Assembly (NCBI RefSeq): GCF_000143985.1
Contig: NC_014364.1
Coordinates: 2,046,001 to 2,110,000, forward strand
DNA length: 64,000 nucleotides
Source: Sediminispirochaeta smaragdinae DSM 11293
Lineage (GTDB): Bacteria > Spirochaetota > Spirochaetia > DSM-16054 > Sediminispirochaetaceae
Direction: 5' to 3'
Of the stretch, positions 17,022 through 26,710 are shown one piece after another; positions within the stretch are counted from its first letter, which is position 1; each line of letters begins with the position of its first letter. Below the pieces are notes generated by a model. That model did no database searches, had not been told where the DNA came from, and saw only the letters and a program-made list of their open reading frames with translations. Made by a program: the position numbers and the translations under genes.

Positions 17022-17888
17022 TTAGTGGCTTTGTACCGCATCGACGGTGATATCGACCGACGTTATCAGGACTCCCCCGTAGCGCTGAAGACTGGAAATA
17101 ATATACTCCTGCATATCGTGAAGCGAACCGGAAAGATTGACTCCTATAGGGAGGTGAACCTTTAGATGAAGATGATATCCACCTGCATCGTGCTTGACGC
17201 TTACCTTCCGTACCGATACTGCGTCGTCCCATTCATCGACACAGTGTAGAACCATCTGGGTAAGGGCCGCCTCACTAATTTCAACTTTTCCCCGTTTGCT
17301 TGAGAACTCGGGTTGTACCACGGTCTTTTCAAAGGCCCGTTGTCCTCCGGGAAGAAGACCAAGCTTTTTTTTGAAAAATACCTTTACGGAATCATAAACA
17401 AACTGGGGGTAATTCTGCCTGATTTCTATAGAAGGAACGGGGATCACATGCTTACCTTCCGTTCTGCTTTTAATAGCCGTTTCGATCTCTTCTTTACTTG
17501 CAAGTTGTTCAATGCTCAATACTTTCGAGGGAGTAGGTAGTCCAAGCCTTCCCGCAATTTTCCTGACCATTCGTTCGCTTGTACCGATAAGAAGGATCCT
17601 CCTGAATTTTTCTCTATCAATAGCCTCCCTGACTTCTCTAAGATGGGCGGGGTCTTCGAAGAGTGCAGTCTTGATGGCGGAAAGGAAGAGCTTTTCCCGC
17701 TTAGCGGAACGGCCCGCAATAATCTTCTGATCGCGAATAAGTAATCCATCGTCGATGATTAATTCAATACCGTATTTTTCTGCCACAAGTTTTGCCCGGA
17801 AGCTTTTACCCGTTCCGCTGCGTCCTACCAACGCAAATACCTGTACGCCCCTGAGTAGCCATACGAGATGGCGGATAAACTGAACCAT
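17022..17888 (-). CDS. P-loop ATPase fused to an Asp23/Gls24-type domain
   Basis: The 288-residue protein begins with a nucleotide-binding P-loop, ALVGRSGTGKS (residues 22-29), followed by IIDDGLLI, and ends (about 200-288) with an Asp23/Gls24-like alpha/beta domain (KVEISEAALTQMVLHCV through VDITVDAV). Asp23 domains occur in Gram-positive envelope-stress proteins, usually alone. The P-loop part may be a kinase-like or regulatory ATPase; no obvious substrate motif is seen. No SD precedes ATG 17888, and a -10 box ends 6 nt upstream. It is divergent from the rnf cluster. Confidence 0.7.
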   Translation of the reverse strand: MVQFIRHLVWLLRGVQVFALVGRSGTGKSFRAKLVAEKYGIELIIDDGLLIRDQKIIAGRSAKREKLFLSAIKTALFEDPAHLREVREAIDREKFRRILLIGTSERMVRKIAGRLGLPTPSKVLSIEQLASKEEIETAIKSRTEGKHVIPVPSIEIRQNYPQFVYDSVKVFFKKKLGLLPGGQRAFEKTVVQPEFSSKRGKVEISEAALTQMVLHCVDEWDDAVSVRKVSVKHDAGGYHLHLKVHLPIGVNLSGSLHDMQEYIISSLQRYGGVLITSVDITVDAVQSH

Positions 17889-18013: not shown

Positions 18014-19600
18014 ATGGTGCGAAAAAATAGAATAGGGGCAATTTTTGCTCTCATATGTTGTGTGATAGTATATGTGCTTTCTCTTTTCTCTGCCTTTCGC
18101 CAGGACCATACTAGTTCAGGTCCCGAACGTCAGTTGTGGCCTGATGCCGTTCCCGTTCTCGTGGATTCGAGTCTTCATCGTTCCGATTTTCTAAGGATTG
18201 CGAAATCGGCAGGCTACGAAAGGGTGAGTCATCAGGGAAATGCAATGGTTCCTCTTTTCTCCTTCCATGGCATGATCAAGGTGCCTGTGGAGAAGGTTTC
18301 AGAACGCTACGATTCCCTTGATCCGCTTTATGATCCGTTTCTGAAAAAACTTCCGGCGCTTTTTAGCGGAAGCATCGATGGACGGGATGCTCAGGTCTAC
18401 TACATCATCACAGAAGATGATCCGAACATGGTCTTTCGGCGCTTATCCGGGGTGAACAGCCCTTATTCGGGAAAATTTGTTGTTGCCGGAACGGGAAGCG
18501 GGCCTGTACTGCTCCTTCCTTTTATCTTTCTTTTCCTTGTCATTTTTTTTGCTTTTGGGGTGGATGCGAAATCCCGTCTCCTCTTTCTTTTGGGATCACT
18601 TCCTGTTGCCGTCTTTTCTTTTGGGACATCTTTTGGCTCTTATGCGGCAATCCTTCTTTTTTCGCCATTTTGGGCTTCGCTGGTCACCCAAATTCCCTTG
18701 TTTCTGAATGAGCGCTTCAGAAGAGGATCGGACACGTCAAATATGGCACACGACCTTTTGATGAGGGCGTTTCGGTATCTTCTTTTTTGTGTTCTTTCGC
18801 TTATCTTCTTTCTCATCTTCTCACAGAAAGGACAGATAAAGAACGTGGGTTCGCTTTTCGCTTGCCTTTTGGCGGGACCAGCCATGATTGGAGCCGCCAT
18901 CCTCTGGCACTATGTGCGATACGCCTCCCGACAGCACGCTCTTTTTGTATCAGTTGCCATAAGCGCTGCGGGCTCTGGCAAGAAACGAATGCTTCGTTTT
19001 TTTTCTTCCCTTTATATGCGGTGCGGTTTCGTCTTGTTCTGTTCTTCCCTTCTTTTCTTATGGCCCTTGTTTAATGACGGCACCGCAGCCTCCCTTTCCT
19101 TGCCTGCTCCGACACCTCATTCGGAGGTAGCGACAGCCACAGGCTTTCCTTCTCTAGGTCAAAAGGGAGATCCTCTTCCTAGTAGGGGGGATTATATTGC
19201 CCACTATGCATTCCACGACGGCTATCTTTTTGGTATGAATTATAGGGTTCCCACCCTCAATGAGGCACTAGAATATGAAAACTATTTCTATATAAACGAT
19301 GTTCTCTATAGTGAACAGGTAACGGCGAAACTGTTTACAGAGCAATGGTATGAAGATATAATAGATCAGCAGGTACAAAACGGGATTATCGGCCTTTTTC
19401 TTAACCAGACAAATTCGGTAGGGCTGAATTATGTCTCTTTGGCCAGCGGAGGCGGCACGGAGCTAAGTGGGGGAAAATTACTTTTTCTGTTGACCGTTGT
19501 CCTTGTTTCGCTGGTCTTTTCGGAAATGCATAACGTTTTCTCTTCGGTAAAGATGGAGCCGGGATCTCGAACGGTAAGGAGTAAAGAACAAGCAGCATGA
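18014..19600 (+). CDS. Large multi-pass membrane protein coupled to the rnf operon, function unknown
   Basis: The product of about 528 residues has one N-terminal membrane segment, an extracytoplasmic region of about 130 residues, a cluster of five to seven hydrophobic helices, a second soluble region (about 360-480) and a final transmembrane helix (LLFLLTVVLVSLVFS). I recognise no family. The start is placed at ATG 18014; an upstream in-frame ATG at 17963 adds 17 unlikely residues. Its stop overlaps the rnfC start as ATGA, which argues for coupled translation and a role with the Rnf complex (assembly, partner subunit or Na+/H+-linked accessory). That role is inference from position only. Confidence 0.75.
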   Translation: MVRKNRIGAIFALICCVIVYVLSLFSAFRQDHTSSGPERQLWPDAVPVLVDSSLHRSDFLRIAKSAGYERVSHQGNAMVPLFSFHGMIKVPVEKVSERYDSLDPLYDPFLKKLPALFSGSIDGRDAQVYYIITEDDPNMVFRRLSGVNSPYSGKFVVAGTGSGPVLLLPFIFLFLVIFFAFGVDAKSRLLFLLGSLPVAVFSFGTSFGSYAAILLFSPFWASLVTQIPLFLNERFRRGSDTSNMAHDLLMRAFRYLLFCVLSLIFFLIFSQKGQIKNVGSLFACLLAGPAMIGAAILWHYVRYASRQHALFVSVAISAAGSGKKRMLRFFSSLYMRCGFVLFCSSLLFLWPLFNDGTAASLSLPAPTPHSEVATATGFPSLGQKGDPLPSRGDYIAHYAFHDGYLFGMNYRVPTLNEALEYENYFYINDVLYSEQVTAKLFTEQWYEDIIDQQVQNGIIGLFLNQTNSVGLNYVSLASGGGTELSGGKLLFLLTVVLVSLVFSEMHNVFSSVKMEPGSRTVRSKEQAA

Positions 19601-20925
19601 AAGGATTATCTACGTTTCCAAAGGGTGGGGTCCACCCTCCCGGTGGGAAGTCTCTTGCATCGGGAAAAGCAATCAAGAATGCGGTGCTTTCTTCAATGTT
19701 TGTGGTTCCGCTTTCCCAGCATCTTGGAAAACCGGCGGAGTGTATTGTTTCTGTAGGGGACGAGGTCCGGGAAGGGATGCTTATAGCAAAAGCTTCGGGT
19801 TTTATCTCTGCCCCGGTTCATTCTCCGGTCCCGGGAACGGTAAAAGAGATACGGGATATTTATCTTCCCAACGGCATGAAAAGCAGTGCAGTTGTGATCG
19901 AATTTGCGGGTGCATTCGACCGCCTCGGAAAAGAAGAACGGGCCGGAGACTGGACCCAACTTTCTGCCGAGGCATTAATGGCAAAAGTTGTTGAGAACGG
20001 CATCGTTGGATTGGGCGGGGCGACCTTTCCGTCTCATGTCAAGTTTTCCGTTCCCAAAGGGAAAAAAGCCGAGTATTTCGTTGTCAACGGGGTTGAGTGT
20101 GAACCCTATCTTACGGCTGATCATCGACTTATGCTCGAACGTGCGGATCAGATCATCGAGGGGATCAGGATTATCAGTCGTATTACCAATGCCGAAAAGT
20201 TGGCCATTGGTATTGAGATTAATAAGCCTGATGCCATTGCTTCGATGAAAGCGGCCGCGCAGAAGGCTAAAGTAAAGCTTGATGTTGTGCCCCTTAAGGT
20301 CAAATATCCTCAGGGCGATGAGAAGCAACTTCTGAAGGCCATAACCGGCAGAGAGGTCCCTTCCGGCGGACTTCCCCTGGATATCGGCGCTATCGTCGCT
20401 AATGTCGGAACCGTCCATGCTGTATTCGAGGCCGTGGTATTTAACAAGCCTCTCATTGAGCGGGCGGTGACGGTTACGGGCGGCGCCATAGCCGATCCCC
20501 AAAATCTGAAGGTTCGTATCGGAACGCCGATTAAGACCCTTATCGAAGAGTGCGGCGGTTTTACGGAAGAGCCTGCAAAGATCGTCATGGGCGGTCCCAT
20601 GATGGGATTTACCATTTACGATCTTGATACGCCGGTTATAAAGGGAACCTCCGGTATCCTTGCGCTGACTCGAAGGGAGGTTCGTGCGTCTACCCGGACC
20701 TTTTGTATTTCTTGCGGTAGGTGTGTAGCGGCTTGTCCGATGGGCCTTAATCCTACAACCCTCTTCAAGTTGATCGACCACGGCGACTATGCTTCGGCAA
20801 TGGAATCCGGCTTGATGGATTGTAAAGAGTGTGGTTGCTGCGGCTTTTCCTGCCCTGCCAGAATTCCTCTGGTACAGGGAATGCGGCTCGGCAAGAAGAT
20901 GGGTCGGAAAAAGAAAAGTGCGTAA
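19597..20925 (+). CDS. rnfC: Electron transport complex subunit RnfC
   Basis: RnfC is the peripheral NADH- or electron-entry subunit of the ion-translocating ferredoxin:NAD oxidoreductase. The 442-residue protein has the N-terminal FPKGGVHPPGGK, an NADH/FMN-binding Rossmann-like part with GIVGLGGATFPSHVK and VVNGVECEPYL, and two C-terminal 4Fe-4S motifs (CISCGRCVAACPMGLNP and CKECGCCGFSCP). It is full length for the short form, without the long C-terminal repeats of some proteobacterial RnfC. It overlaps the preceding membrane protein gene by 4 bp. Confidence 0.96.
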   Translation: MKGLSTFPKGGVHPPGGKSLASGKAIKNAVLSSMFVVPLSQHLGKPAECIVSVGDEVREGMLIAKASGFISAPVHSPVPGTVKEIRDIYLPNGMKSSAVVIEFAGAFDRLGKEERAGDWTQLSAEALMAKVVENGIVGLGGATFPSHVKFSVPKGKKAEYFVVNGVECEPYLTADHRLMLERADQIIEGIRIISRITNAEKLAIGIEINKPDAIASMKAAAQKAKVKLDVVPLKVKYPQGDEKQLLKAITGREVPSGGLPLDIGAIVANVGTVHAVFEAVVFNKPLIERAVTVTGGAIADPQNLKVRIGTPIKTLIEECGGFTEEPAKIVMGGPMMGFTIYDLDTPVIKGTSGILALTRREVRASTRTFCISCGRCVAACPMGLNPTTLFKLIDHGDYASAMESGLMDCKECGCCGFSCPARIPLVQGMRLGKKMGRKKKSA

Positions 20926-20942: not shown

Positions 20943-22082
20943 ATGAGCGAAAAGAATAAAGAAGCTGAAAAAATAATGCGTCTTGTGGAGAGTTCTCCGC
21001 AGATACATAATAAGCAATCGACCTCGTCTATTATGTGGAGCGTTACGTTGGCCCTCCTTCCTGCCGCTGTCTGGGGCATCTACCTCTTTGGCGCCAGGGC
21101 CCTGACAGTCTTGCTTGTCTCCATTGCAGCGGCCGTCGTTACCGAGGCGATCATTGCTGCGTTTTCGGGACGATTCACTCTCTTTGACGGGAGTGCTGTG
21201 CTGACCGGCTTGTTGATAGGTTTTAACATGCCTCCTGCCGTCCCTTTCTATGTCCCGATCTTCGGTTCCGTTTTTGCCATTGCGGTGGTGAAGTGGACCT
21301 TCGGAGGTTTGGGAGGCAACTGGATGAACCCTGCCTTGGCAGGACGGGTCTTTGTCTTTTTTAGCTGGACTGGGCAAATGACATCCTGGAGTAGTCCAAA
21401 GACGGTGGTCGATGCGGTGAGCAGTGCGACTCCTTTGGGAATGTTGAAGACCGGTTTGCTCGACTATTCCGGTTCAGCAACCGGCCCTGCCGAATTCCTC
21501 AGTTCCAACGGCTTTGTTGGGAGCACCAACGGTTTGTCGCATTTTTTCACCCCGCTCTTTGGCGGCGGTACAAGTGGAAAGATCTATGCGGATCTCTTTA
21601 CAGGTAATGTCGGCGGCTGTATCGGAGAGGTTTCTGCCTTGTTGCTGATCCTTGGGGCCCTCTATCTCTTTGCCAAAAAGATTATCACCTGGCAGATTCC
21701 CGTTGCTTATCTCGGTTCTTTCGCCTTGCTGGTCTGGATCTTCGGTGGAAACCGATACGGGATGGGCGCCTTTTCCGGGGATGTCCTCTTTCATCTTTTC
21801 TCCGGAGGGATCATGCTTGGTGCGCTTTATATGGCAACGGATATGGTGACAAGTCCTCTTACCGGCAAAGGTATGATCATTTATGGGGTGGGAATCGGAT
21901 TTCTTACCTTCCTGATACGCTTTTATGGTTCTTTTCCGGAAGGGGTTTCCCTGGCAATCATCTTGATGAACATCTTTGTTCCCATGATCGACCGGTACAA
22001 CAAGCCGCATCGTTTCGGTGTTGAGCGGAAAAGGTTTATCGATCGTTTAAAGGAACAGTCGAAAGCGAGGGAGGAAGCATGA
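20943..22082 (+). CDS. rnfD: Electron transport complex subunit RnfD
   Basis: RnfD is a membrane subunit carrying covalent FMN. The 379-residue protein from ATG 20943 has several hydrophobic segments, GGLGGNWMNPALAGRVF, and the flavinylation motif DAVSSATPLG, where Thr is the expected FMN attachment site for ApbE. The stop overlaps rnfG as ATGA. Confidence 0.95.
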   Translation: MSEKNKEAEKIMRLVESSPQIHNKQSTSSIMWSVTLALLPAAVWGIYLFGARALTVLLVSIAAAVVTEAIIAAFSGRFTLFDGSAVLTGLLIGFNMPPAVPFYVPIFGSVFAIAVVKWTFGGLGGNWMNPALAGRVFVFFSWTGQMTSWSSPKTVVDAVSSATPLGMLKTGLLDYSGSATGPAEFLSSNGFVGSTNGLSHFFTPLFGGGTSGKIYADLFTGNVGGCIGEVSALLLILGALYLFAKKIITWQIPVAYLGSFALLVWIFGGNRYGMGAFSGDVLFHLFSGGIMLGALYMATDMVTSPLTGKGMIIYGVGIGFLTFLIRFYGSFPEGVSLAIILMNIFVPMIDRYNKPHRFGVERKRFIDRLKEQSKAREEA

Positions 22083-22639
22083 ACAACCCCATTGTGAAAA
22101 TCGGTGGAAGACTTGCCTTGATCTGTGCCGTTGCGGCGCTGGTCCTCGGGGTCGTAAATGCCCTCACTGAACCTCAGATTGCCAGGATTAAAGCGGAAAA
22201 GCTGAAAGCAGCCTTGGAAACCGTCTCGGGCGGAAGGAAAACGGGTGAAGCAGTAGCCGTGGACAATAATCCTGTGGTCGACCGTTATTACCCTGTATAT
22301 GGCGATGATGATCAAATCGTCGGTTACGTTTGCCAGCTTCTCGGCAGCGGTTACGGCGGTACGATCGTAATCCTTGGTGGATATGACCTGAAGGGAACGG
22401 TCCTTGCTGCCAAAATGATGGATAACGAAGAGACCCCCGGCTTAGGAAAAGAGGCTGAGAAGGCATCTTATATGGAAAAATACGTTGGTACGGGAGGCGA
22501 TAAGCCTGTTCCCGTCAGGAAAAGCATGCTCACGACCGAGCAGTCGGACAGTGTAACGGGAGCCTCCATTACGTTTATGGGGGTAGGTAAGGCGCTTCAG
22601 GAAGGATCCCGTTTTGTAGTGTCCTTGGAGGGGAAATAG
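22079..22639 (+). CDS. rnfG: Electron transport complex subunit RnfG
   Basis: RnfG is a periplasm-facing flavoprotein subunit with one N-terminal membrane helix and an FMN-binding domain. The 186-residue protein has the sequence DDEQ/VGYV-type core, NEETPGLGKEA, and DSVTGASITF near residue 160. The ApbE consensus Dxx(S/T)GA(T/S) is met, but with Ser in place of the usual Thr as FMN acceptor. It is tightly coupled to rnfD, and rnfE follows 1 bp later. Confidence 0.93.
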   Translation: MNNPIVKIGGRLALICAVAALVLGVVNALTEPQIARIKAEKLKAALETVSGGRKTGEAVAVDNNPVVDRYYPVYGDDDQIVGYVCQLLGSGYGGTIVILGGYDLKGTVLAAKMMDNEETPGLGKEAEKASYMEKYVGTGGDKPVPVRKSMLTTEQSDSVTGASITFMGVGKALQEGSRFVVSLEGK

Positions 22640-22640
22640 C

Positions 22641-23261
22641 ATGTGGAAAGAGTTTACAAAGGGGCTGTTCAGAGAAAATCCTATTTTTGTGATTGTTCTT
22701 GGACTTTGTCCTACTCTTGGTGTATCTTCCAGGGTAATTAACGCCTTGGGAATGGGTGCCGGAGTAATTTTTGTTTTGTTGTGTTCAAATATTTTTATCT
22801 CTCTGCTGAAGAATTTTATTCCGAATCAGGTGAGAATTCCTTCTTATATCGTTATTATCGCCAGCTTCGTAACCGTCGTTCAGATGGTTATGCAAGCCTT
22901 TCTTCCCGACCTTTACGACAGTCTTGGAGTTTTTGTCCCTTTGATTGTCGTCAATTGTATCATTCTCGGACGGGCGGAGGCTTTCGCAAGTAAAAACGGT
23001 GTGGGAGCATCCATTCTTGATGCCCTTGGCATGGGAATCGGTTTTACGCTGGCTCTCACGGTTATTTCTCTGGTTCGTGAAGTGTTCGGATCCGGTACCA
23101 TAACCCTTTTTGCTTTTGGTGATTTCGATGGTGTCGTGAGAATCCCCGGCATTGTCGATTCTCCCGCACGGGTATTTGTCCTGGCGGCTGGTGCTCTTCT
23201 TGTCATGGGGTATCTAAAGGCCCTTGTCGGAATCATTCAGGAGAAGGGAGGAAAGGGCTGA
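22641..23261 (+). CDS. rnfE: Electron transport complex subunit RnfE
   Basis: This integral membrane subunit of the ion-translocating core is 206 residues long with about six hydrophobic segments. The family motif FRENPIFVIVLGLCPTLGVSSR is at the start and NCIILGRAEAFASKN in the middle. RnfA and RnfE are paralogues of opposite topology, and the LGLCP cysteine helps bind the intramembrane iron-sulfur centre. rnfA begins one base after the stop. Confidence 0.95.
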   Translation: MWKEFTKGLFRENPIFVIVLGLCPTLGVSSRVINALGMGAGVIFVLLCSNIFISLLKNFIPNQVRIPSYIVIIASFVTVVQMVMQAFLPDLYDSLGVFVPLIVVNCIILGRAEAFASKNGVGASILDALGMGIGFTLALTVISLVREVFGSGTITLFAFGDFDGVVRIPGIVDSPARVFVLAAGALLVMGYLKALVGIIQEKGGKG

Positions 23262-23262
23262 T

Positions 23263-23853
23263 ATGAGCTATCTTGGCATTATTATTACCTTTGTTTTTAT
23301 CAACAACTTTATTCTGACCCAGTTTCTTGGTCTTTGCCCTTTTATCGGGGTTTCAAAAAATCTTGAATCCGCAGTTGGCATGGGGTTTGCTGTTACCTTC
23401 GTTATGGCCCTGGCCTCTTTTGCAACCTGGGCGATTTACCACCTGATTCTTGTTCCTCTTAATATTGAATTCCTTCAGACAATAACCTTTATTCTGGTCA
23501 TTGCCTCCCTTGTTCAATTTGTCGAGATGGTTATTCAGAAGATTTCCCCGCCGCTCTACAAGGCCTTGGGAATTTTTCTTCCCCTCATCACGACAAACTG
23601 TGCGGTCATGGGTATTGCCCTTATTGCCGTGCAGAATAAGTATAATGCTCTGGAGAGCTTTGTCGCGGGAATTGCTGCCGGTCTTGGATTCCTTCTTGCC
23701 ATCGTTTTGATGTCTACGATCAGGGAAAAGCTTGACAATGAATGGATTCCGAAACCTTTTCGTGGGGTGCCTATCGCTTTCATCACCGGGGGATTGATGG
23801 CCCTTGCGTTCATGGCTTTTGATAAGGCACTTTTGAACAATCTTCTAGGATAA
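23263..23853 (+). CDS. rnfA: Electron transport complex subunit RnfA
   Basis: Membrane subunit paralogous to RnfE, about 196 residues from ATG 23263. It has NNFILTQFLGLCPFIGVSKN at the start and TTNCAVMGIALI in the middle, each with a cysteine conserved in the family. An upstream in-frame ATG at 23224 lies inside rnfE and would add 13 unlikely residues. Confidence 0.95.
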   Translation: MSYLGIIITFVFINNFILTQFLGLCPFIGVSKNLESAVGMGFAVTFVMALASFATWAIYHLILVPLNIEFLQTITFILVIASLVQFVEMVIQKISPPLYKALGIFLPLITTNCAVMGIALIAVQNKYNALESFVAGIAAGLGFLLAIVLMSTIREKLDNEWIPKPFRGVPIAFITGGLMALAFMAFDKALLNNLLG

Positions 23854-23865
23854 CGGGAAAACGAT

Positions 23866-24699
23866 ATGTTACTTCTTAAAATACTTTATGCGTTTTTGGT
23901 GGTAGGGATATTGGGGGGCGTTCTCGGAGCAGCGCTCGTGGTCGCCTCAAAATTCTTTTCTGTCAGCAAAGATGAACGAATACAGCAGGTTGAGGATGCT
24001 CTGCCTGGTGCAAACTGTGGTTCCTGCGGGTATGCCGGATGTGCCGCATACGCGGAGGCCATTGCAGCCGGTGAGGCGCCTCTTACCTTATGCGGACCGG
24101 GAGGAGCAGAGGCTGCATCGAAGATTGCGGAAATCATGGGGCAGGAAGTCGAAGTCTCGGACCGAAAGATGGTTGCTCAGGTCCATTGTCGCGGCACTAA
24201 GGAGACTACAAGCTATCTGTATGCCTATCGGGGACTGAAGGATTGTAACGCTGTACACGCCCTATTTCAGGGGGATAAGGAGTGTAAATACGGATGTCTC
24301 GGTCTGGGAAGCTGTATGAAGGTTTGCCCGGTTGATGCCATATCCTATGACTCCGGTGGAAGGGTTGTTGTTGATAAAGATGCCTGTATAAGCTGCGGGA
24401 ACTGTATAGAGGCCTGTCCTACCGGTGTTATGCAGTTCGTACCTTATGAGGCAGATTATATCGTGGCGTGTAACTCGAAAGATAAAGGTGCTGCCGTTAG
24501 AAAGTATTGTAGCGTCGGCTGTATTGGGTGTAAAATATGTGAGAAAAAGTCTCCCGAAGGTGGCTTCAAGGTCGAGAATTTTCTTTCTTCGATCGATTAT
24601 GATAAGATGGGAGATAGAAGTGAAGCGGCAAAGGGTTGTCCTCCCAAATGCATTGTGCGGGTGGATTCTCTGATAAAGGGAGTCGATGAAAAAGCTTAG
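23866..24699 (+). CDS. rnfB: Electron transport complex subunit RnfB
   Basis: RnfB is the multi-iron-sulfur subunit that probably receives electrons from ferredoxin. The 277-residue protein has one N-terminal membrane helix and a 4Fe-4S domain with GANCGSCGYAGCAAY plus a later Cys (LCGPGG). Next come CKYGCLGLGSCMKVCPVDA, CISCGNCIEACPTG and a further cysteine cluster CSVGCIGCKICEKK that is usual in clostridial-type RnfB. Its 3' end overlaps the GH57 gene by 14 bp. Confidence 0.95.
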   Translation: MLLLKILYAFLVVGILGGVLGAALVVASKFFSVSKDERIQQVEDALPGANCGSCGYAGCAAYAEAIAAGEAPLTLCGPGGAEAASKIAEIMGQEVEVSDRKMVAQVHCRGTKETTSYLYAYRGLKDCNAVHALFQGDKECKYGCLGLGSCMKVCPVDAISYDSGGRVVVDKDACISCGNCIEACPTGVMQFVPYEADYIVACNSKDKGAAVRKYCSVGCIGCKICEKKSPEGGFKVENFLSSIDYDKMGDRSEAAKGCPPKCIVRVDSLIKGVDEKA

Positions 24700-26710
24700 G
24701 CTTATTTTTGGGGTGTTCGGGAGTAAACCGGTTGGAACCGATCCCGAACAGCTTGAAACTGTTTATCAAAAAACCTATAAACCCTTTCTTACTGTTTTAT
24801 ATGGATTTCCTAAAATTCGTAGCTGTCTTCATTTTTCAGGGCAGCTGTTTGACTGGTTTGAAGAGACCCATCCCGAAATCCTGATGGTCATCAGCGAGAT
24901 GGTGAAGAGGAAGCAACTTGAAATCATCGGGGGAGGGTATTATGAGCCTATTTTCCCGCTTATTCCGACAAAAGACCGAGTGGGGCAGATAGAGCTCTTA
25001 ACCACCTACATCAGAAAACGTTTCGGAAAGCGTCCCCGTGGCTGTTGGATTCCGGAACGGGTCTGGGAGCCCTCCCTTGCTTCTGTTTTCAGCAGTTCGG
25101 GCATGGAATATATCTTTCTTGACGATCGTCATTTTATGAGTGCAGGACTGCGAGGGGAGAAGATTTACCATCCTTGCATTACGGAGGATCAAGGTAAAAC
25201 GGTCAGGGTTCTTCCTCTGACCTCCCGATTAAACCGAATGATTCCCTTTGCCTCTCCTGAAGATGTATATGCCAAGATAGGTGAGATAGCGGCCTCCGAA
25301 GAGCATGAAGTGGCATCTATTATGATTGATGCCGATATGCTCGGATATGTGCCGGGCACGGAAGGTGTTTGTGAGGCAGGCGGATGGATGGAGTGTTTTC
25401 TTCGACTCGTTGATGAGAATCGCGGTGTGGCTATACCTGTACTCCCCGGACAGTTTGTAAGAAGCCTTGATAGCCTTGAAAAGGTTTATTTTCCTTGTAC
25501 CGCCTATGAAGAGATGATGCAGTGGCCGCTTCCTCCCGAACAGCAGATGGATCTTGAATTTGTGAGGAGCCGGACCGAAAAGGACAACGGTTCCATCTAT
25601 GTCAACGGCGGTTACTTTCGCCAATTTCTTACCCGCTACCCGGAAAGCAATTTGCTGTATGCACGGATGATGTACACCTATTTGTTGGTGAATCAGGTGC
25701 AGCGGGATCGTGCGCGTAAAAAGAGTGCACGGGAAGAGAGCTGGCGGGGACAATGCAATGCCCCCTATTGGCACGGTCGTTACAATGGTGTCTACGACAA
25801 CCATCTGAGGAAGGCCGCATACCGAAGTTTCATAACGGCTGAGAAGACCACGCGTGAGCGAGGAATTTTTACAACAGCCATACATCCGGTTGATATCGAT
25901 TTCGACGGGGCGGATGAATATATCTATCAGGGACAGAATATTAATGCCTATATCCATCGCCGGAGCGGTATGCTTTTTGAATTGGACTATCTTGTCAGCG
26001 GTTGGAATTATCTGGATACCATGGCCCGGCACCGGGAGCGGTATCACGATGATAACGATGAACGTCTCGGGATAGATAACTATCCGAGACGGGCTTTTCT
26101 TGATCATGTCTTATATGATGACGTCACCTTTTCGCAATTTAAGACCATGCAGTTTCGGGAGGCTGCCGATTTTATCAATCAACGGTATGATCTTGATGAA
26201 CTCGACAGAGAGCATAAACGGCTCTATCTCCACTGTGGAACATTCCTTCACATGAATGGCGTTCCGATGCCGCTTTTTTTGAAAAAGGGATATAACTTTT
26301 CAAAAAACAGTGTTGAGGTTGAATACACCATTGAGAATCGCTCTTCAGTGACGTCAGCCTTTCTTTTTGCACCGGAGATTAATCTCTCGCTTTTTGCAAA
26401 CGCTCAGGAGGATGCTCATCTATTTCTCGGAGACAAGGGAGATGCGGGAGATGACGCTTTGACAGAGGGTGTCGAACGGGGCGGAATAAAAGAGATAGCG
26501 CTCCACGATAATCGTAATCATGCCATTGTGAGTATCGTCCTTGATTCCCGGTGGGCTCTTTGGTCTTTTCCCATCTACACCATTGCGGCTGGTTTGCGTG
26601 GTAAGCGTGCCGTTTATCAGTCAAACGCTTTTGTCGTGAGAAAAAAGCTTTCCCTTGAACCTGGTGAGAGCTGGAGCGGCATCATCACAATGAAAATAGA
26701 GAAAAAGTAA
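24686..26710 (+). CDS. GH57 family 4-alpha-glucanotransferase / alpha-amylase-like protein
   Basis: The 674-residue cytoplasmic protein matches GH57 glucanotransferases in order: an N-terminal (beta/alpha)7 barrel with GGGYYEPIFPLIP, the nucleophile segment WIPERVWEP (E124), and the acid/base region SIMIDADMLGYVPGT. Beta-rich DUF1925/DUF1926-like parts follow (YHGRYNGVYDNHLRKAAY to the end). In the well-studied enzyme the acid/base stretch reads HDDGEKFG; here His and Glu are replaced but one Asp (about D215) is kept. Activity is likely but specificity unsure. It begins inside rnfB, an odd partner for carbohydrate metabolism. Confidence 0.85.
   Translation: MKKLRLIFGVFGSKPVGTDPEQLETVYQKTYKPFLTVLYGFPKIRSCLHFSGQLFDWFEETHPEILMVISEMVKRKQLEIIGGGYYEPIFPLIPTKDRVGQIELLTTYIRKRFGKRPRGCWIPERVWEPSLASVFSSSGMEYIFLDDRHFMSAGLRGEKIYHPCITEDQGKTVRVLPLTSRLNRMIPFASPEDVYAKIGEIAASEEHEVASIMIDADMLGYVPGTEGVCEAGGWMECFLRLVDENRGVAIPVLPGQFVRSLDSLEKVYFPCTAYEEMMQWPLPPEQQMDLEFVRSRTEKDNGSIYVNGGYFRQFLTRYPESNLLYARMMYTYLLVNQVQRDRARKKSAREESWRGQCNAPYWHGRYNGVYDNHLRKAAYRSFITAEKTTRERGIFTTAIHPVDIDFDGADEYIYQGQNINAYIHRRSGMLFELDYLVSGWNYLDTMARHRERYHDDNDERLGIDNYPRRAFLDHVLYDDVTFSQFKTMQFREAADFINQRYDLDELDREHKRLYLHCGTFLHMNGVPMPLFLKKGYNFSKNSVEVEYTIENRSSVTSAFLFAPEINLSLFANAQEDAHLFLGDKGDAGDDALTEGVERGGIKEIALHDNRNHAIVSIVLDSRWALWSFPIYTIAAGLRGKRAVYQSNAFVVRKKLSLEPGESWSGIITMKIEKK

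Follow-up and report, generated by a model that had tools for sequence, protein, structure and literature searches.

RseC and the archaeal mmcA/MA0665 are non-core genes that are linked to rnf or needed for it. In size and architecture, as they are generally described, they are set apart from the protein reported here, which we call X, a name given to both the protein and its family. X is encoded at 18014-19600 (+) in a stretch of 64,000 nucleotides, positions 2,046,001-2,110,000, of the Sediminispirochaeta smaragdinae DSM 11293 chromosome (hereafter the window). The Rnf complex (RnfABCDGE) is its closest described system by position, as X is the operon's first gene and is coupled to rnfC; however, X matches no Rnf subunit model and is not co-inherited with rnfC. 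By predicted architecture, the closest system is the RND superfamily (SecDF/MmpL/NPC1 type), which X resembles in its predicted first helix, porter-like domain in the periplasm and helices 2-6, whereas its second half is cut to helix 7, domain 2 and helix 8, and it has neither the conserved ion-relay residues nor a sequence match to RND models. The closest named gene product is probably BB0071 of B. burgdorferi, which belongs to the same family by profile and occupies the same gene place. The member of this type that we read starts like a lipoprotein; it differs from X in having a lipoprotein-like signal instead of the N-terminal helix, and the RnfC part that goes with it has no CxxCxxC motifs.

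The reading frame of X runs from ATG at 18014-18016 through 528 sense codons to 19597 and ends with TGA at 19598-19600. The A at 19597 is both the end of the final sense codon and the A of the rnfC ATG. The six genes 3' of X were identified with NCBIfam as rnfC, D, G, E, A and B, in that order, the rnfG call (81.7 bits) lying below the curated cut-off of 102. The coordinates and these assignments bear out the preliminary description of a 528-residue protein that overlaps rnfC by ATGA and opens an rnfCDGEAB operon, and its two large extracytoplasmic regions were recovered by hydropathy and by two AlphaFold models, the second of which covers the first region only. The features are as follows.

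18014..19600, + strand: gene X, 528 aa, N-in/C-in, about eight transmembrane helices (predicted)
18134..18487, + strand: periplasmic domain 1 (residues 41-158), containing W42 and D103-P104-R-x-D107-P; porter-like alpha/beta fold (predicted)
18935..18955, + strand: cytoplasmic loop (predicted) joining helix 6 to helix 7 and carrying the family motif HRLFxPV, whose H308 is invariant in A1
19088..19447, + strand: periplasmic domain 2 (residues 359-478), in which H397, P413 and W445 are invariant in A1
19577..19581, + strand: AGGAG within the X frame, 15 nt upstream of the rnfC ATG; retained in many homologues
19597..19600, + strand: ATGA, in which the X stop and the rnfC start overlap
19597..20925, + strand: rnfC
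20943..22082, + strand: rnfD; the ATG start is our choice
22079..22639, + strand: rnfG, with a TGAS flavin-type motif
22641..23261, + strand: rnfE
23263..23853, + strand: rnfA; the ATG start is our choice
23866..24699, + strand: rnfB
24686..26710, + strand: gene for a GH57-type glucanotransferase/amylase, with which the block usually ends downstream

The ATGA overlap is present at 25 of the 27 X-rnfC junctions examined, which suggests that translation of the two genes is coupled in the cell. In 15 of 24 members, AGGAG falls within the final 30 nt of X; in the window its distance from rnfC exceeds the usual Shine-Dalgarno spacing. AGA/AGG make up 38 of 50 arginine codons in the last ten codons of X and 289 of 748 elsewhere. 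X also contains a promoter-like TTTACA-17-TATAAT (11/12) at 19334-19362 (+) of the window, about 235 bp before rnfC, which may give rnfC a separate start. The divergent neighbor at 17022-17888 (-), with a P-loop-like N terminus and a weak Asp23 match (both below cut-off), ranks among the most constant genes of the block.

X is new to the family libraries. Pfam and NCBIfam returned no family for it at E up to 1, and its 32 relatives gave nothing beyond scattered one-member matches, in agreement with the preliminary description, which knew of no Rnf component of this type. The literature search, as far as the sources were covered, returned no description of the family; bb0071 is named in the part of PMC6516651 that was available. 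Searching with the one sequence recovered X from 31 of 60 genomes, the organism's own included. X is 89% identical across its whole length in a sister species, while the 30 members aligned are mostly about 20% identical to the X of the window and share D103, F117, Y130, H308, H397, P413, W445 and the start M without exception. Between two species of the genus, X (dN of 0.052, dN/dS of 0.21) evolves faster than its neighbor rnfC (0.006 and 0.06). A chance open reading frame was considered and is ruled out by the full-length identity in the sister species, the dN/dS of 0.21 and the full-length homologues with invariant residues at about 20% identity. The profile built from the 30-member alignment matched 97 of 296 Spirochaetota genomes. 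All of these are among the 118 genomes of the window's class (Spirochaetia; counted by hand), and none of the 178 genomes of other classes matched. A broader profile found X in 149 of 198 genomes of the class, a figure that, like the association tests below, counts as present a doubtful match in G036 (E 9.1e-4) that we read as chance. Beyond the phylum, coverage consists of two pattern scans: a single-sequence scan of 84,980 genomes gave 17 matches, none confirmed, and a second scan gave 82, of which 16 were confirmed, all titled as spirochaetes. X is thus described here as the founding member of a fast-evolving inner-membrane family that has been found so far only in this class.

An rnfC-like gene lies directly 3' of intact X at 46 of 51 readable loci, a count that leaves out L106 (an f10 contig ending inside X), the G039 fragment and duplicate genomes. 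The homologues in spirochaetes are therefore mostly linked to rnf rather than mostly unlinked, in line with the preliminary description. The first 30 loci contributed 27 such neighbors, with G002, G029 and G042 as exceptions; the gene was also found 3' of X at nine loci from the second pattern scan and ten more class genomes, and it was not adjacent at two f10 loci. The order that recurs is hisS, pcnB, a TPR gene, an AAA/Asp23 gene, a DUF212 gene, X, rnfCDGEAB, a GH57 gene, prfB and ftsY, and the GH57 gene follows at 27 of the 32 loci whose stretch reaches that far (G002 counted twice). Since unrelated neighbors (GH57, prfB and pcnB) also hold their places, linkage to rnf says little about function, and we rejected it as proof of what X does, the whole block being frozen. 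The DUF212 (divergent PAP2) gene is directly upstream of X in many genomes (e.g., L033:7289-7765); it was lost along with X in f9 and is retained without X in G378, G416, G360 and G111.

X and Rnf have been lost separately. A complete rnf operon from which X is cleanly absent was found in f9 (L097-L099; L100 also has no X but no recognized rnfB) and in genus g13 of f12 (L102, L219 and L220; L101 is cut by its contig), and the operon is likewise in place, with X cleanly absent, in f3, f4 and f18 (L207-L215, of which L207 ends inside rnfD). The same holds for f29 (L216, and L217, readable to rnfA) and G360 (L218). In G039, of g13 of f12, X is reduced to a 229-residue N-terminal fragment (L103:7014-7700) before a complete rnf operon. 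Because f9, f3, f4 and f18 form one clade, we count at least four separate losses of X beside rnf. A genome that we take to be T. pallidum-like (L096) has no X and keeps a divergent rnfC. In the other direction, X stands without adjacent rnf genes in four lineages, namely, G002, G029, G042 and f10. In G042, an intact X is followed by a 65-codon rnfC remnant (L037:2042-2236) where the operon was deleted; of the four f10 genomes, three have X and none has an rnfC above the cut-off (rnfC profile alone).

Across 198 genomes of the class, X and rnfC are not associated: X is present in 122 of the 162 genomes whose rnfC exceeds the cut-off and in 27 of the other 36, for an odds ratio of 1.02. Considered as a candidate Rnf subunit, X is encoded in the rnf operon, as its first gene, but shows no homology to RnfA, B, C, D, E or G (Pfam and NCBIfam, E up to 1) and is not co-inherited with the core subunits. 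As X has been lost without rnf and the adjacent rnf genes without X, it is not an obligate Rnf subunit. The idea of a new accessory or assembly subunit, put forward in the preliminary description, therefore stands in that X is new, coupled and rnf-linked, but the losses in both directions and the odds ratio speak against the word subunit. Many genomes own a second, canonical Rnf elsewhere, and all 20 RnfC proteins fetched from it fall in one clade (FastTree). X is beside this second Rnf at none of the 20 loci (L187-L206), about half of which have rnfB first. G002, G029 and G042 each have another rnfC, and X could serve the second, unlinked Rnf of these genomes.

In the Borrelia-type genomes examined, the order is DUF212, X, an RnfC/D fusion, a 191-aa membrane protein and prfB. 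The fusion is a 770-aa protein (L085:10268-12586 and L086:9823-12126); in L085, a single chain carries both an RnfC_N match (29 bits) and an NQR2/RnfD match (46 bits) but no CxxCxxC motif, and the fusion seems to be redox-dead. The 191-aa protein reached 7.6% probability against RnfA and 0.1% against RnfE by hhalign. Other X-linked operons (L035, L036, L038, L039, L087, L089, L092 and L093) have strongly diverged C and D and no recognizable rnfB, their RnfC keeps two CxxCxxC motifs, and several of these genomes own a second, canonical Rnf elsewhere. We do not claim a loss of flavin sites, as the flavin-motif patterns also miss several canonical RnfD. The treponemal form of Rnf is called noncanonical or cryptic in the part of PMC7512555 that was available. 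In a Borrelia-type X, a lipoprotein-like signal (LISC) takes the place of helix 1, which fits a periplasmic location of domain 1. From the gene count between peptidase M29 and prfB (Pfam) and the locus numbers we assume for these anchors, we take this X to be BB0071. The gene bb0071 is annotated "putative lipoprotein" in Table 2 of PMC6516651, and in the part of that paper available here it is one of 46 genes for which insertion mutants, though present in the cultured input, were missing from the larval ticks of both experiments. Since the mutants were present in the input, the gene was dispensable in culture there, and it may matter in the tick, as far as this part of the source goes.

The predicted order of elements in X is helix 1, domain 1, helices 2-6, the HRLFxPV loop, helix 7, domain 2 and helix 8. 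The full-length AlphaFold model, made with 17 sequences, has a mean pLDDT of 68.8 and confident periplasmic domains, and a model of the N-terminal half of a relative (residues 1-310) has a pLDDT of 84.9. With the half model, Foldseek placed SecDF in the first row (probability of 0.99, E of 0.0039), and most of the top 50 were RND proteins, with no match reaching E 0.001; the RND superfamily was also on top in the fold search with the full-length model. VIA aligned the half model with RND halves, mostly over 210-270 of 310 residues at Z of about 8-9 and rmsd of 5-9 Å, although a Z near 8 is within reach of unrelated models and the first VIA row was a Wzc-type chain; such rows also scored high across the fold searches. 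Among solved structures, the best profile match had an E of 0.29. The N-terminal half of X looks like half an RND protein, with SecDF as the best match, a likeness of predicted fold class and topology. An RND protein has 12 helices in two half-units; the model of X has eight, consistent with hydropathy.

These observations bear on several readings of what X does. A transporter, i.e., an active RND-type exporter or lipid transporter, would suit the predicted RND-like half fold and the DUF212 (divergent PAP2) gene directly upstream at many loci. However, X has eight predicted helices and not twelve, at E up to 1 no RND Pfam model matched any of the 32 members searched, and among 30 members no helix column is more than 53% charged except R188, which is charged in 70% and is near a helix start. 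The lack of a strongly conserved charge inside the helices makes an ion-driven pump unlikely, and we consider active transport improbable. A role in periplasmic flagella or spirochaete cell shape is suggested by the distribution of X, which 148 of the 167 class genomes with fliG have and all 31 that lack fliG are missing, bar the doubtful G036, and by the absence of FlhA in all 14 tested members of f3, f4, f9 and f18. The association (Fisher p of 1.8e-21) ignores descent and was set aside: a likelihood tree joins the sampled members of these four non-flagellated families in one clade (SH-aLRT of 99.9), so that the count reflects one co-loss and carries no statistical weight. This tree, which took in 45 of 78 genomes, is preferred over a FastTree rpoB tree that gave two separate flagellar losses and 15 changes of X, some of them probably genes missed in incomplete genomes. 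As X is also absent in flagellated lineages (f7, f12-g13, f29, G111 and G360) and from flagellated spirochaetes of other classes, a flagellar role is unlikely, if somewhat less so than transport.

Two further readings keep X tied to Rnf. X might be a dedicated but dispensable Rnf accessory in assembly, in flavin loading of RnfD/RnfG or in regulation, serving the second Rnf where the linked operon is gone. The Rnf-like neighbor at 46 of 51 loci, the coupling at 25 of 27 junctions, the place of X beside RnfC-D remnants in Borrelia-type genomes and the other rnfC in G002, G029 and G042 all point this way, but at least four lineages have a complete rnf operon without X, f10 keeps X with no rnfC above the cut-off, X is beside none of the 20 second Rnf loci, and unrelated neighbors hold their places too. 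We regard an accessory as possible but doubtful. It is also conceivable, though improbable, that X and Rnf1 together make up a machine derived from Rnf, with an RND-like unit in the periplasm that either makes use of the Rnf core or is steered by it, a reading that would fit the Borrelia- and Treponema-type genomes, whose redox parts have decayed while X and the C/D core are kept.

To the accessory we prefer, with a probability of roughly 0.4, the reading that X is a periplasmic helper of truncated RND-like build that goes back to the ancestor of the class and is co-translated with Rnf but separable from it. X would consist of one RND half (helix 1, porter-like domain and helices 2-6) followed by helix 7, domain 2 and helix 8, and would have stood first in the ancestral rnf operon, its translation feeding rnfC through the ATGA overlap, as judged from sequence only. 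Acting from the periplasmic side, it may assist secreted or membrane proteins as a helper or adaptor that resembles SecDF and is not an enzyme, a role we infer from predicted fold and topology; Rnf proteins are possibly among its clients, yet would not be the sole reason for its retention. The near-universal rnfC linkage counts against such a separate helper, as does the Borrelia-type X, which still precedes the RnfC-RnfD fusion, a gene order that favors a lasting tie to Rnf-derived proteins. On balance, X is more likely to be an undescribed envelope protein in its own right than part of Rnf.

The case of X illustrates that strict operon linkage does not make a protein a subunit. Most of the genomes sampled from the class to which Treponema- and Borrelia-type organisms belong contain this undescribed protein family, which adjoins a complex whose treponemal form is called noncanonical or cryptic in the available part of PMC7512555. 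If the Rnf-derived machine were real, it would be a redox-independent envelope machine born from Rnf. The transposon insertions in bb0071, the probable Borrelia member, that the available part of PMC6516651 reports already exist, and their phenotype is open to study at once.
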